Shown here piece by piece: positions 1-42,236 of a DNA stretch of 42,236 nt. Each line of letters begins with the position of its first letter. The stretch's first letter is position 1. Under the pieces are notes generated by a model. It saw only the letters and a list, made by a program, of their open reading frames with translations. It was not told the DNA's origin and did not search any database. A program made the translations under genes and the position numbers. Source of the stretch: Verrucomicrobiaceae bacterium (GTDB taxonomy: Bacteria > Verrucomicrobiota > Verrucomicrobiia > Opitutales > Intestinicryptomonadaceae); assembly GCA_015061955.1 (NCBI GenBank), contig SUVO01000020.1:1-42236 (forward strand). The letters are read 5' to 3'.

Positions 1-129
1 CAAAAGTGCGTCATAAGCTGTGAGGTGCCTCGATTGCGATTCTATATACAAAAAGAGCATTCCAAATGGAATGCTCTTATCTCTATATAAATATTTTTCG
101 CAATCGAGACACCGTCCTCGCACGTTTTA
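1..129 (-). repeat. Stop-codon-anchored three-way-junction repeat, copy 1 (cut by window edge)
   Basis: Read on the minus strand, the element starts with the stop codon of the PEP-CTERM gene (TAAAACGTGCGAGG, 129 to 116), the presumed 5' arm of helix P1. A 2-nt spacer (AC) follows. Helix P2 then pairs 113-98 with 39-24: 16 positions, 15 Watson-Crick plus one G.U. Inside the P2 loop sits an intrinsic terminator hairpin. After P2 comes a 5-nt spacer and GCTTATGACG, the presumed start of P3; the other arms of P3 and P1 lie beyond position 1. The first 13 nt are identical to the start of the copy after metG, 8.8 kb away and on the opposite strand. Confidence 0.7.
51..77 (-). terminator. Intrinsic terminator of the PEP-CTERM gene, inside repeat copy 1
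   Basis: AGAGCATTCC (54-63) pairs perfectly with GGAATGCTCT (68-77) around an AAAT loop. On the minus strand the stem is followed by TTTTTG, so it serves the gene ending at 127. It lies in the apical loop of helix P2 of the repeat element. Confidence 0.85.
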
Positions 130-2100
130 CTTTCTGCGACGATAGGCAATGAAGCCGAGTGCTATCGCTCCGAATATCATAGCCCATTCGGCTGGCTCTG
201 GTACTTGTTCGAGAGTAAACAAATAACCGTCTCTACCATTGATTTGTTTTTCAACCCATTCCCAGCCAGTGCCACCTAAATTACCTTCTCCATAATAGAA
301 CGACTCATCGTCAACAGCAACACCGTCAAAAGTTACAAAGCGGAAATCTTCACGCCATACTTCGCTATCGACATAATCTTTTGAGAACCATACTAAACCA
401 TTCTCAAAGCCTTTAAAGTTGATTATATTACCTTCGGCAAGAGCAACAGTGTTAGTAGTAACAGCTGCAATATCAATACCTACTTTTGTGAGTTGATCAA
501 ATTCAACTAATGCTCTACCCTCTTCAGCTACACCATTAGAAAGGTCGATAGTCAAAGTTTGTTTGTTGTCGGCAAAGCCTATGTATCTAATTCTATTACT
601 TTTTCTAATATCTATTGTTGCATTCTGACCGCCTTCTGTAGCCAAGTCGTATTGACGTGCGTGTGTAGTGTCGTAGTTTACGTCTATTGCATCTAATACC
701 AAAGTTGAGTTGTTGCGAATAGAGATACCACCATGTTTTGCTTGAGCTTTATCGTCATAAAACTTCGACTGCATTGTTAAAACAGAATTATTTCCCTGAA
801 TATATAAGGCCGAACCATACAACTTAGCTGTTGAAGTTATAGTAAAATTGCCGTTTGCTAAAACAATTTCAGCCGTTGGGGCAATTGTTGCTAATTTTGA
901 GGCATCATCACCAATTGCAAAATCTTTAAAATTACTATAAGCCGAAATAATCTGACCACTAATTACAGCGTCTACATAACCATCATTAGCCTTATCACCA
1001 CCTGCACCATTTATTCTAAAAACTTTAGAAACAAGTACACCACTAATATCTACATAACCATCTGTATAAATATTAGCCGTTGGTGCCATAGCTGTAACTT
1101 TACCAGTACCAGAGTCAGCCAAAGTAAAATCACCATTGTTAACAAGCAACGTATTACCAACCGACATCGTACCAGTTTCGCCTACATAGAAATCGTTGTA
1201 AATAGTAGTATTCCATGTATTAGTATAAGTACCATATACATTTGTTTTACCTTTTAATACAGATGATGTAGAAGTTGTAGAACCACCTTGTTGGATATTA
1301 ACTTCTGCCGAGCTTGACGAATTTATAAATGTTGTAGTACTTGTTACATCGGCAGTGCCATTGTTGTAGGTATATGTACCAACTTTGCCGTAAATATTGA
1401 ATACTTCCGAATTATTTTTTCTATATGAAGCAGAAATTCCACTCGTATTGTTAGTAGAAGTATCGTCACTATTATAGCCCAAGTAAATATTTTTATTTGA
1501 AGTAACAACTGCATCGCTATTGATGTTCAACGTAGTTGTATACGTTGCATCTGTTGATACATTACCACCATAAGCTTGGAAGCTTTGATCTTGGAAAATA
1601 AAGAGAGTATCGCTTGTACCTGTACCATTACCAATATTAAATGTACAATCAACAGTATAAGCCCCCATAAGGAAATCACTATACCCAAACTTTGAATTTT
1701 TTGAAATTAAAGTACCGTTATCGAAATTACTGTTGTTAGGTATTCCATTAACACTTTTTACCAAATAACGACGATTTTCATTTGATTGGCTTTGTGCCAA
1801 ATCGTGAGTGATTGTTTTCCCACCTAAATCAAAAGTTGCATTTACAGCTGTAAAGCGAAACTCCATGAAACTAACACCATCGCGATCTAATACCATAGTC
1901 TTATTAGCATCAATCTCAAGAATGGTTGTATTATTGATGTTAGAAGGATCGTATGGAGTTTCCTTTGGAGCCGTAACCTTTGTCCAATTAGCAGGATTTG
2001 CCCAAGAAGAATCAACGCCTCCGGTAAACTTAATTTCATCAGCACTTGCAAAAGTAGAAACAAATGCCATTATTGATAAGGTTGTAAGTAATTTTTTCAT
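127..2100 (-). CDS. Secreted PEP-CTERM sorting-domain protein with autotransporter-like repeats
   Basis: A 657-residue exported protein. The N-terminus is a signal peptide (MKKLLTTLSIMAFVSTFASA, cleavage expected before DE). The body is rich in Asn, Thr, Ser and Gly and holds short repetitive strands of the kind that form beta-solenoids, such as the recurring 'NNSTLVLDA' and 'NGNFTITSTAKLYG' style. The C-terminus is a PEP-CTERM tail: VPEPAEW, about 17 hydrophobic residues, then YRRRK. Proteins with this tail are recognised by an exosortase and placed at the cell surface or in the extracellular matrix. The exact role is unknown; adhesion or matrix formation is an inference. The gene has a strong promoter next to a run of nine G (see 2115-2158) and ends in a structured repeat. 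No exosortase gene is in the window. Confidence 0.85.
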   Translation of the reverse strand: MKKLLTTLSIMAFVSTFASADEIKFTGGVDSSWANPANWTKVTAPKETPYDPSNINNTTILEIDANKTMVLDRDGVSFMEFRFTAVNATFDLGGKTITHDLAQSQSNENRRYLVKSVNGIPNNSNFDNGTLISKNSKFGYSDFLMGAYTVDCTFNIGNGTGTSDTLFIFQDQSFQAYGGNVSTDATYTTTLNINSDAVVTSNKNIYLGYNSDDTSTNNTSGISASYRKNNSEVFNIYGKVGTYTYNNGTADVTSTTTFINSSSSAEVNIQQGGSTTSTSSVLKGKTNVYGTYTNTWNTTIYNDFYVGETGTMSVGNTLLVNNGDFTLADSGTGKVTAMAPTANIYTDGYVDISGVLVSKVFRINGAGGDKANDGYVDAVISGQIISAYSNFKDFAIGDDASKLATIAPTAEIVLANGNFTITSTAKLYGSALYIQGNNSVLTMQSKFYDDKAQAKHGGISIRNNSTLVLDAIDVNYDTTHARQYDLATEGGQNATIDIRKSNRIRYIGFADNKQTLTIDLSNGVAEEGRALVEFDQLTKVGIDIAAVTTNTVALAEGNIINFKGFENGLVWFSKDYVDSEVWREDFRFVTFDGVAVDDESFYYGEGNLGGTGWEWVEKQINGRDGYLFTLEQVPEPAEWAMIFGAIALGFIAYRRRK

Positions 2101-7424: not shown

Positions 7425-8951
7425 ATGAAAAACTTTTACATTACAACAGCAATCGACTACGCAAACGGCTCGCCACACTTAGGTCACGCATACGAAAAAG
7501 TTTTGACCGACGTAATTGCAAGATGCCGTCGCTTAAAAGGCGATAATGTATACTTTTTAACAGGACTTGACGAACACGGTCAGAAAGTTCAACAAAGTGC
7601 TCGCAAAGCTGGTGTTGAACCAATCGTATTGTGCGACGCTCAAGCCGAAAAATTTCAAAATTTGTGCAAAATTCTAAATATATCGAACGACGACTATATT
7701 AGAACTTCGCAACCTCGCCACAAAAAAGTAGTTGCAGAAATCTTGCAAAAACTCTACGACAAAGGCGAGATTTACAAGGCTGAATACAAAGGCTTCTACT
7801 CTACTCGCCAAGAACAATTCCTACAAGAAAAGGATAAAGTTGATGGCAAATGGCCCGAAATTTTCGGCGAAGTTGTTGAAATTACCGAAAGCAACTACTT
7901 CTTCAAATTGCGTCAATATCAAGATTGGCTCATTGAATACATCGAAAAAAACGAAAGCTTTATATATCCACGATTCCGTGCAAAACAAGTTATCGAATTC
8001 CTAAAAGAACCTCTCAACGACTTGTGCATATCGCGTCCAAAAGAACGTTTGGAATGGGGTATTGAACTTCCTTTCGACACCGATTACGTTACATACGTTT
8101 GGTTCGACGCCCTTGTAAACTACATATCGGCAATAGGCTATGGCACAGATGATTTCAACAAAAACTGGCCTGCTGATTTCCACGTTATAGGCAAAGATAT
8201 TCTTGTACCACCACACTCGGTTTATTGGCCAATTATGCTACATGCTTCGGGTATTGAATTACCAAAATCGTTATTAGTTCACGGTTGGTGGTTATCATCT
8301 GGCGAAAAAATGTCGAAAAGCTTGGGCAACATTGTAAACCCACTCGACTTAATCGAAAAATTCGGTGCCGACCCATTCCGTTACTTCCTAATGCGTGAAA
8401 TGAACGTTGGGCAAGATTCAGATTTCTCGATGGACTTATTCGTAACCCGATACACTTCTGACCTCGGCAACGACCTCGGCAATCTCATCAGCCGTTTACT
8501 CAATATGGGCAAACGCTATTGCCAAAGTATAGTTCCAACTGCAAACGAAGACTTTGAGTTTGAAACCCAACTAAAAAACCTTGCTAAAGAAACTACCACT
8601 GATGTAATGGCATTGTTCGATGGTATGCAATTCCACATAGCATTAGAAAGAATTTTCAACTTCATTCGCGCTATAAATCGCTATGCAGAACAACGTGCAC
8701 CTTGGAAACTTGCAAAAAGCGAAGATTCAGCCGATCAAGAATTACTCAAAACAACATTGGCAAATATGGCTGAAGCTATCAGAATTTCTGCAGTTTTACT
8801 AGCTCCTATTATGCCATCGGTTTCTGAAAAAATTCTAAACCTCATTGGTGCAGGCAACATCGACAAATTTGAAGGAAACCTTGAATGGTCTGACAAGCTT
8901 GCTGGTACAAAGCTTGCAGACCAAGAAATTTTATTCCCTCGCCCCAACTAA
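7425..8951 (+). CDS. metG: Methionyl-tRNA synthetase, short form
   Basis: Charges tRNA-Met with methionine using ATP, in the cytoplasm. The 508-residue protein has the class I motifs HLGH (residues 18-21, the HIGH box) and KMSKS (295-299), followed by an alpha-helical anticodon domain ('RAPWKLAK'). It ends right after that domain, so it lacks the C-terminal tRNA-binding/dimerisation extension seen in longer MetG proteins. The insertion that holds zinc-binding Cys pairs in other MetG types reads 'YKGFYSTRQEQFL' here, without cysteines, so this is the zinc-free type. The start at 7425 gives the normal distance to the HIGH box. It stands alone, with its own promoter and two tandem terminators downstream. 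The stop codon is the first base-paired part of a repeat element. Confidence 0.97.
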   Translation: MKNFYITTAIDYANGSPHLGHAYEKVLTDVIARCRRLKGDNVYFLTGLDEHGQKVQQSARKAGVEPIVLCDAQAEKFQNLCKILNISNDDYIRTSQPRHKKVVAEILQKLYDKGEIYKAEYKGFYSTRQEQFLQEKDKVDGKWPEIFGEVVEITESNYFFKLRQYQDWLIEYIEKNESFIYPRFRAKQVIEFLKEPLNDLCISRPKERLEWGIELPFDTDYVTYVWFDALVNYISAIGYGTDDFNKNWPADFHVIGKDILVPPHSVYWPIMLHASGIELPKSLLVHGWWLSSGEKMSKSLGNIVNPLDLIEKFGADPFRYFLMREMNVGQDSDFSMDLFVTRYTSDLGNDLGNLISRLLNMGKRYCQSIVPTANEDFEFETQLKNLAKETTTDVMALFDGMQFHIALERIFNFIRAINRYAEQRAPWKLAKSEDSADQELLKTTLANMAEAIRISAVLLAPIMPSVSEKILNLIGAGNIDKFEGNLEWSDKLAGTKLADQEILFPRPN

Positions 8952-9176
8952 AACGTGCGAGAGCGCGTTTTCTTTGATGATGAGTTTTAATTTACACTAT
9001 AAGGCACTTCGTTGAAGTGCCTTTTTTTATTAAATAAACTCTTCAAAGAAAACGCTTTCGGCTGTTATTTGGTTTCGTATCGCCTCACGTACATAGTACG
9101 CTACGGCTCACAAAACACAAATTCCAGCTCGAATCTCGCACATTTTACTTCTTGCAACCTATGTTTATTCTAAACT
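8949..9176 (+). repeat. Stop-codon-anchored three-way-junction repeat, copy 2 (complete)
   Basis: A complete element that begins with the metG stop codon. P1 pairs 8949-8962 with 9134-9147 (13 of 14). P2 pairs 8965-8980 with 9040-9055 (15 of 16). P3 is the imperfect hairpin 9061-9128 (GCTG/CAGC base, ATTTG/CAAAT, GTAC-ATA-GTAC tip). Spacers are 2 nt (P1-P2), 5 nt (P2-P3) and 5 nt (P3-P1). An intrinsic terminator fills the P2 loop. After P1 comes a tail (CCTATGTTTATTCTAAAC) that resembles the tail of the other copies. No open reading frame lies in it. Confidence 0.8.
9001..9028 (+). terminator. First intrinsic terminator after metG, in the P2 loop of copy 2
   Basis: AAGGCACTTC (9001-9010) pairs perfectly with GAAGTGCCTT (9014-9023) around a GTT loop and is followed by TTTTT. 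Confidence 0.92.
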
Positions 9177-41826: not shown

Positions 41827-42052
41827 AAACGTGTGTGGACGCACCACGAGGGCAATATTTTTTATAATAATGATGAAAGGCAATTCTTCGGAATTGCCTT
41901 TTTTTGTATTAGCTTGCCCTCGTGGTGCTTGTAGCTAAAAGAGCGTCTGCTCGGGTGGGCAGTGCGTAGCACAGCTCCACCAACTCGCAAACATCTCTTT
42001 TAGCAGACACCACACACGTTTTTTATTTCCCTTTCCTATGTTGGTTCTAATC
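41824..42052 (+). repeat. Stop-codon-anchored three-way-junction repeat, copy 4 (complete)
   Basis: A complete element starting at the gpsA stop codon. P1 pairs 41824-41838 with 42010-42025 (15 pairs, one T bulge). P2 pairs 41841-41855 with 41914-41928 (15 of 15). P3 pairs 41934-41943 with 41995-42004 (10 of 10), with inner helices GGTGG/CCACC (41954-41958, 41977-41981) and GTGC-GTA-GCAC at the tip. Spacers are 2, 5 and 5 nt, the same as in copy 2, although the arm sequences differ. A UUCG-capped terminator sits in the P2 loop. The tail CCTATGTTGGTTCTAATC matches copy 3. Confidence 0.82.
41876..41905 (+). terminator. Terminator of gpsA in the P2 loop of copy 4
   Basis: AAAGGCAATTC (41876-41886) pairs perfectly with GAATTGCCTTT (41891-41901) around a stable TTCG tetraloop, followed by TTTT. 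Confidence 0.93.
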
Positions 42053-42236
42053 CGAAAGCAATATTTTTTATTATAATGATAAAAGGCAATTCTAATTGCC
42101 TTTTTTTTGTATTTAGTTTCGCAAAGTGGTGCTTGTAGCTAAAAGAGCGTCTGCTCGGGTGGGCAGTGCGTAGCACAGCTCCACCAACTCGCAAACATCT
42201 CTTTTAGCAGACACCACACACGTTTTTTATTTTCCG
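42053..42236 (+). repeat. Structured repeat, copy 5 (tandem; continues to or past the window edge)
   Basis: A second unit directly after copy 4, offset 204 bp. Positions 42126-42232 are identical to 41922-42028 (107 nt), covering part of P2, all of P3 and the P1 3' arm. The first part has diverged: P2 is reduced to about CGAAA/TTTCG, and no P1 5' arm is present. The terminator (AAAAGGCAAT/ATTGCCTTTT, 42081-42104) is kept. The tail is cut by the window end. Together with copy 4 it fills the 410 nt after gpsA; no gene is seen there. Confidence 0.75.
42081..42108 (+). terminator. Second terminator after gpsA, in copy 5
   Basis: AAAAGGCAAT (42081-42090) pairs with ATTGCCTTTT (42095-42104) around TCTA and runs into TTTT. 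Confidence 0.85.

Follow-up and report, generated by a model that had tools for sequence, protein, structure and literature searches.

A three-way-junction repeat family on the stop codons of core genes in a Verrucomicrobiaceae bacterium

The window, the whole stretch of DNA analysed here, is the entire contig C10 (42,236 bp) of a 2.43 Mb Verrucomicrobiaceae assembly in 35 contigs (genome G000), whose MetG relatives point to a host within the gut Opitutales. Translation of its 533-codon metG frame places a TAA stop codon at 8949–8951 on the forward strand, and a 195-bp unit starts on that stop (gap −1 to the frame), its first helix reading AAACG.. from 8951. The unit (8951–9145, +) folds as a three-way junction both as RNA and as DNA and scores 175.7 bits against a covariance model that counts this copy among its own 18 sequences. 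Helix P1 joins a 5′ arm at 8949–8962 to a 3′ arm at 9134–9147 (both +) with one C-A mismatch, and hairpin P2 (8965–9055, +) has its outer stem at 8965–8980/9040–9055, where the original prediction had placed both helices; 15 of the 16 P2 pairs change on both sides across the 18 units. The P2 loop holds a hairpin resembling an intrinsic terminator (9001–9030, +), with a 10-bp stem and a T run. P3, which carries a terminal GTACATAGTAC hairpin and corresponds to helices 3–5 of the covariation analysis, had been predicted at 9061–9128; it is present in the folds but longer, at 9057–9133 (+), since 9057–9060 pair with 9130–9133. Most of the two supposed 5-nt spacers is therefore taken up by pairing, which leaves a junction of 2/1/0 nt in the minimum-energy fold. 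The region 8949–9147 folds with −75.1 kcal/mol as RNA and −48.1 kcal/mol as DNA, with z = −10.2 in both cases and none of 200 shuffles equally good. We confirm that the three-way-junction fold at metG is real; the feature as a whole is larger than first described.

The metG unit is followed by a tail of about 30 nt (9146–9176, +) with TTCTAA close to its end, and it forms an array with a second unit, decayed and missing the 5′ arm of P1 (9186–9367, +; 51.0 bits). Another copy lies on the stop codon of gpsA (41827–42021, +), with a gap of 0 to its 332-codon frame; it scores 196.8 bits and likewise belongs to the 18 sequences of the model. As had been predicted it repeats the plan of the metG copy with different arm sequences, and its junction is likewise 2/1/0 nt. 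Behind it follow a tail and a second, tail-led unit (together 42022–42225, +; the unit at 42055–42225, 102.6 bits). At the other end of the window a partial unit, cut by the contig start (2–127, −; 83.3 bits), sits on the stop codon of a PEP-CTERM-like gene on the minus strand (127–2100; gap −1 to a 660-codon frame).

These copies belong to a large repeat family. The covariance model R1, built from the 18 units, all of them from G000, gave at least 131 matches at E <= 0.001 in this genome, a lower bound obtained by scoring 150 of 1870 candidates and including 22 opposite-strand echoes of the P2 palindrome. DNA BLAST returned 93 pieces with the metG copy as query and 69 with the gpsA copy. For the P1 pattern AAACGTGYGWGR the genome holds 74 + 74 places, where the reversed control pattern gave 1 and 2. 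A unit measures about 195 bp and consists of P1, a short spacer, P2 and P3. Of 84 units folded, 60 formed the three-way junction; 46 of these 60 measure 192–199 bp and 38 have the 2/1/0-nt junction. Contigs often end inside an element (C4, C7, C10, C12, C15, C18, C20, C24, C26, C28 and C29, for example), so the copy number is probably underestimated, with the repeats breaking the assembly. Some units depart from the common form: L018 (1299–1600) and L019 (C9:76151-76431) have a longer P3 with additional small palindromes, and at L043 (1074–1247, 61 bits) P1 and P2 are quite different and a terminator was not found.

P1 (AAACGTGCGAGA, AAACGTGTGTGG, AAACCGTGAGGA, CAATGGGCGAGA and others), P2 and P3 all differ between subfamilies, with pairing kept throughout. 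In a MAFFT alignment of the 18 units, 94.9% of pairing cells hold a pair, compared with 71.5% in shuffled alignments and 34–52% in slid versions, and both partners have changed in 34 of 47 pairs. Covariation scores 0.608, versus 0.189 for shuffles, none of 500 reaching the observed value; by one measure, the number of further pair types, these units show no excess (53 versus 60 in shuffles). As read from the alignments, arm variation often comes in blocks, namely inner and outer halves of P2 and whole P3 modules. The covariation thus reflects both point change and block exchange between subfamilies, and part of it is not base-by-base compensation; recombination that swaps arms as blocks would produce covariation too. 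The proposal of a conserved geometry with changing arms that still pair holds in many copies of this genome and in other species, and the contrary outcome, copies losing P1–P3 or showing no covariation, did not appear when looked for in an equivalent form.

The most striking property of the family is its placement on stop codons. The original prediction had spoken of an element "rooted on a stop codon", and this proves to be its central feature. We scored 83 matches of at least 76 bits for distance to the nearest end of any open reading frame of at least 80 codons; 24 were flagged as array-internal and 5 lay too close to a contig end. Among the 54 units that come first in their array, 46 lie at −3 to 4 nt from the stop and two more at 5 nt, making 48 of 54 within 5 nt. 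The six others are C31:86963, C8:246, C19:53649, C22:13873, C8:51670 and C21:81468, the last of which is actually array-internal. One unit flagged as array-internal, C2:50768, in fact sits on a stop codon, and C28:18031, outside the 83, lies on a TAA after 438 open codons. First units share a single orientation, sense relative to the gene: at the 5′ end of units a sense frame ends within 5 nt in 50 of 78 cases and at 6–60 nt in three, while no antisense frame ends within 5 nt of the 3′ end in 67 (five do so at 6–60 nt). The T of the stop is separated from the CG of P1 by 3–7 A, with 4 or 5 in 33 of 41 units. Every element-bearing long frame in this genome ends in TAA (49/49), compared with 64 of 82 long frames without an element; exclusive use of TAA is ruled out outside G000 by two TGA cases, both weak model matches. 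We know of no mechanism that would find a stop codon.

The host genes are ordinary, unrelated core genes. A scan of 30 host proteins gave a model match for 23. At least one model exceeded its curated cut-off with the products of gpsA, recA, pckG, tpiA, pfp, leuA, rho, fabH, cysK, clpP, gapA, rplS, groEL and sdhB, together with an O-acetylhomoserine sulfhydrylase and a class I fumarase. Matches below the cut-off, many of them in partial frames, were to a GreA-domain protein, a pyrophosphatase, a B12-dependent ribonucleotide reductase, an LptF/LptG-type permease, a ROK protein, a family B polymerase and a sugar isomerase. Alignments of FabH, GapA, GroEL and CysK with solved chains run to the chain ends, give or take a few residues. 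These four proteins end natively, so the element respects the native stop there, and creation of the stop by truncation of the gene is ruled out for them. Twelve of 50 host proteins end in what we take to be a PEP-CTERM-like sequence (VPEPAEWA..AYRRRK), with the element on the stop codon, in the window (127–2100, −) and at 11 other loci. One of these was among the proteins scanned and had no model match, and the copies on the 12 genes do not count as independent.

Units are frequently stacked. Chains with more than one unit make up 28 of 72, and in 23 of the 28 the gene-adjacent unit has the higher model score. Units join either directly, as CACGTTT-TA-AAACGTG and close variants, or through tails, which follow 50 of the 83 units, are mostly 28–30 nt long and end in TTCTAA or a near form. 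Behind 19 of the 50 tails another unit picks up from its own position 21–26, with the 5′ arms of P1 and of outer P2 missing; the others lead to units resuming at 12, 18 or 36, to older remnants or to nothing recognisable. The tails suggest that a newer unit would be placed at the stop codon at a cost of about 21 nt to the older one. Tail-led units score low partly from the missing arm, so the layering is no clock.

The search of related genomes that had been proposed gave matches in several of them. DNA BLAST found no copy in 35 relatives. Among 18 genomes of the same bacterial family, R1, though trained on G000 sequences only, matched once in a congener (G003, 76.7 bits), once and doubtfully in a second congener (G009, 43.8 bits), and five times in G017 (best 74.1 bits) and four times in G015 (best 57.4 bits), both of another genus. 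It matched none of the other 14, one of which, G010, is uninformative, having no MetG match and hardly any candidates. The second model R2, which adds the sequences from other species, gave 12 matches in G017 and 11 in G015 (15 genomes, E <= 0.01). Folding of 21 units from other species yielded 14 three-way junctions with the same topology (G003 1/1, G015 6/7, G017 7/12, G009 0/1). Spacer lengths are less constant than supposed, the 2/1/0 junction occurring in 38 of the 60 three-way units of G000 and in 5 of the 14 elsewhere. The arms are mostly unlike those of G000 in sequence, and P3 ends are, by eye, of two types, each found in G000 and in G015/G017. On stop codons lie 13 of the 21 units (G003 1/1, G009 1/1, G015 4/7, G017 7/12), two of them on TGA. 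Since R1, trained on G000 alone, still matched in other genomes, we regard the family as common to several genomes and amplified in G000.

A search of the order with R2 (132 genomes, 20 candidates scored in each) gave no match outside the genus; it gave no copies from G015 or G017 either, the drawing of both being uncertain, so absence elsewhere does not follow. At the metG loci of 16 relatives with a long enough neighbourhood R2 found no match, whereas the locus of G000 itself did match; the neighbouring genes of metG differ among relatives and do not offer a clean empty site. The metG copy had no match among phages and plasmids, and seven pattern matches to the tail in viral contigs, none with a model match, are taken as chance. 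The earlier statement that no named RNA is known to have this plan agrees with Rfam, in which no family passed its gathering threshold for the element: the window gave only a tRNA, the best score in a further search was 22.7 bits where 51.4 were needed, and nine loci gave nothing. Nor did the literature searched for repeats describe one anchored on stop codons.

An intrinsic terminator inside one arm had been proposed as part of the plan, which does not hold for the family at large. A simple finder, asking for a GC hairpin and T run in gene sense, detected one in 76 of 84 units of G000, positioned in the P2 loop, and in 2 of 21 units elsewhere. Usually absent outside G000, the terminator looks like a local addition. 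Its position within P2 means that a terminated transcript lacks P1′, P2′ and P3.

Selection on RNA should favour G-U pairs. G-U and A-C stand at 10:15 in 22 units of G000 and at 10:10 in 10 units of other species, 20 to 25 in total, small numbers taken from an alignment fitted to the model. A likewise small control of 60 pairs from five tRNAs of element loci, with the tRNA 3′ end set for maximal Watson-Crick pairs, held five G-U and no A-C. A reading of the covariation as a sign of RNA is not supported: G-U is no commoner than A-C, and transcripts ending at the terminator would be incomplete. From the missing G-U excess, small as the numbers are, and the terminator within P2, the fold looks to act at the DNA level, with pairing like that of DNA.

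REP/BIME palindromes are extragenic and often lie at gene 3′ ends, and an integron attC site is a folded DNA site at a gene end whose structure is kept while its sequence is free. The present family shares with REP/BIME its nature as extragenic palindromes and differs from them in that they are 20–40-bp elements, according to PMC3733652, with RAYT (Y1) transposases: the Y1 transposase PF01797 was absent from all 19 genomes of the bacterial family and present in 5 of 14 controls, and a RAYT-type (Y1) element was rejected. A retroelement of the group II intron type was also rejected, as the reverse transcriptase PF00078 was found in none of G000, G003, G009, G015 and G017 (3 of 14 controls had it) and only in G018, a genome without an element match. 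The integron integrase TIGR02249 exceeded its cut-off in 0 of 19 family genomes and 0 of 14 controls, with weaker tyrosine-recombinase matches only; three tyrosine-recombinase-like genes are visible in G000. An autonomous transposase with matching ends was not found at three lone P1 places, among the 100 of 148 matches listed; the lone P1 at C2:47630 and C18:63798 are in coding-like sequence. At C9:28811-28822 (L237) of G000 a solo P1 3′ arm stands directly after a gene, scar-like, as from a lost element.

Taken together, the many copies, the plan kept under changing sequence, the single orientation on stops and the stacking behind the first unit suggest a mobile element living on gene ends in an undescribed way. 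We think it reasonably probable that the family is a mobile DNA element recognised by its shape and targeted to stop codons, within the limits that no transposase with matching ends was found at the three lone P1 places and that 6 of 54 "first" units and 8 of 21 units of other species lie off the stop. The unit would be recognised as folded DNA, single-stranded or cruciform, by a putative recombinase or a host repair activity, and its insertion at the stop codon would shift older units further downstream; in G000 the unit would also bring a terminator, at little cost to the host. More specifically, and only tentatively, it may represent a new type of element, a three-way-junction DNA that is recognised through its shape, independently of its sequence, and inserts in sense exactly at the ends of translated genes by a route linked to transcription or translation, without Y1 transposase, integron integrase or reverse transcriptase.

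Several properties of the units, at about 195 bp non-coding, in high copy number and with the P1 arms as terminal inverted repeats, are those of a MITE. One alternative considered is an ordinary MITE belonging to a DDE insertion sequence with a TA/TNA target, of IS630 or IS5 type for example, that inserts widely and survives only at gene ends through the stop and terminator it supplies. Inverted ends, a length below 250 bp, high copy number, TA/TAA at many junctions, and the direct joining of units around TA speak for it. The pneumococcal SPRITE, RUP and BOX elements offer a parallel as small, folding interspersed repeats that number 30 to 125 in the genome examined, RUP and SPRITE being comparable and SPRITE also terminator-like and close to gene 3′ ends (PMC3049150), and all three cluster and nest (PMC10969869). 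SPRITE, however, is a single 18-bp duplex with a U-rich tract, and the accessible portion of PMC3049150 describes neither a three-way junction nor placement on stop codons; bacterial MITEs, for their part, usually share their ends with an insertion sequence and target intergenic sites generally, and "stop codon" is absent as a term from a 2024 MITE review (PMC10969869). Selection among insertions in 3′ regions should moreover result in varied distances and in both orientations, which is not what the 48 of 54 units at the stop and the 0 of 67 with an antisense end within 5 nt show. P1 varies widely inside one genome and is ill-suited to sequence-specific end binding; the four host proteins with native C-termini received no new stop, and the terminator is mostly missing from units elsewhere. 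We consider an ordinary MITE unlikely.

A structured 3′ UTR RNA, serving regulation, stability or ribosome termination, which selection on RNA would maintain and recombination would spread, is rather less plausible still. Strong covariation and core genes as hosts agree with it, and a site just after stop codons fits ribosome termination structures, which are also mRNA structures in that position; as PMC7518266 presents them, these are a statistical folding signal of many unrelated sequences and not a repeat family. Against an RNA stand the G-U count and a terminator that keeps terminated transcripts from forming P1, P2 and P3, as well as the lack of the element behind metG in 16 relatives, and near-identical long copies on unrelated genes would in any case require a spreading mechanism.

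We give little credence to host terminators homogenised by gene conversion, with arrays from unequal crossing-over and no mobility: the terminator in 76 of 84 units, the block exchange between subfamilies and the arrays would follow from it, yet most host genes have no shared homology to place a unit exactly at the stop, congeners have 0–1 matches compared with 131 here, and other species mostly lack the terminator. An attC-like site of an integron-type system, gene and folded 3′ site forming a cassette, would explain the start at the stop codon, the kept structure with variable sequence and the single strand orientation, but can practically be set aside, with no integrase over the cut-off, no GTTRRRY/RYYYAAC core seen by eye in those ends that were read, and copies scattered behind core genes with no cassette array.

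It is rare for a mobile element to insert at a single position in the layout of a gene. If a shape-recognised element targeted to stop codons is indeed at work, landing on the stops of recA, rho, groEL and gapA without changing the protein would be among the most harmless insertions available, and the family would make it testable how DNA targets a feature defined only by translation. It is also a case in which covariation seems to reflect the pairing of DNA and not of RNA.

A separate feature of the loci is a set of promoter-like TTGACA and TA(G/A)(T/C)AT boxes whose spacer carries a run of 8–10 G. It occurs in the window at 2144–2173 (−) and at L020 427–457, L025 1538–1568, L027 1132–1162 (−), L028 2056–2085, L032 3820–3850 (−), L034 1272–1302 (−) and L051 195–225. 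In six of the eight cases the next ATG opens a signal-peptide-like start, and judging from the sequence these look like promoters for phase-variable expression of surface proteins.
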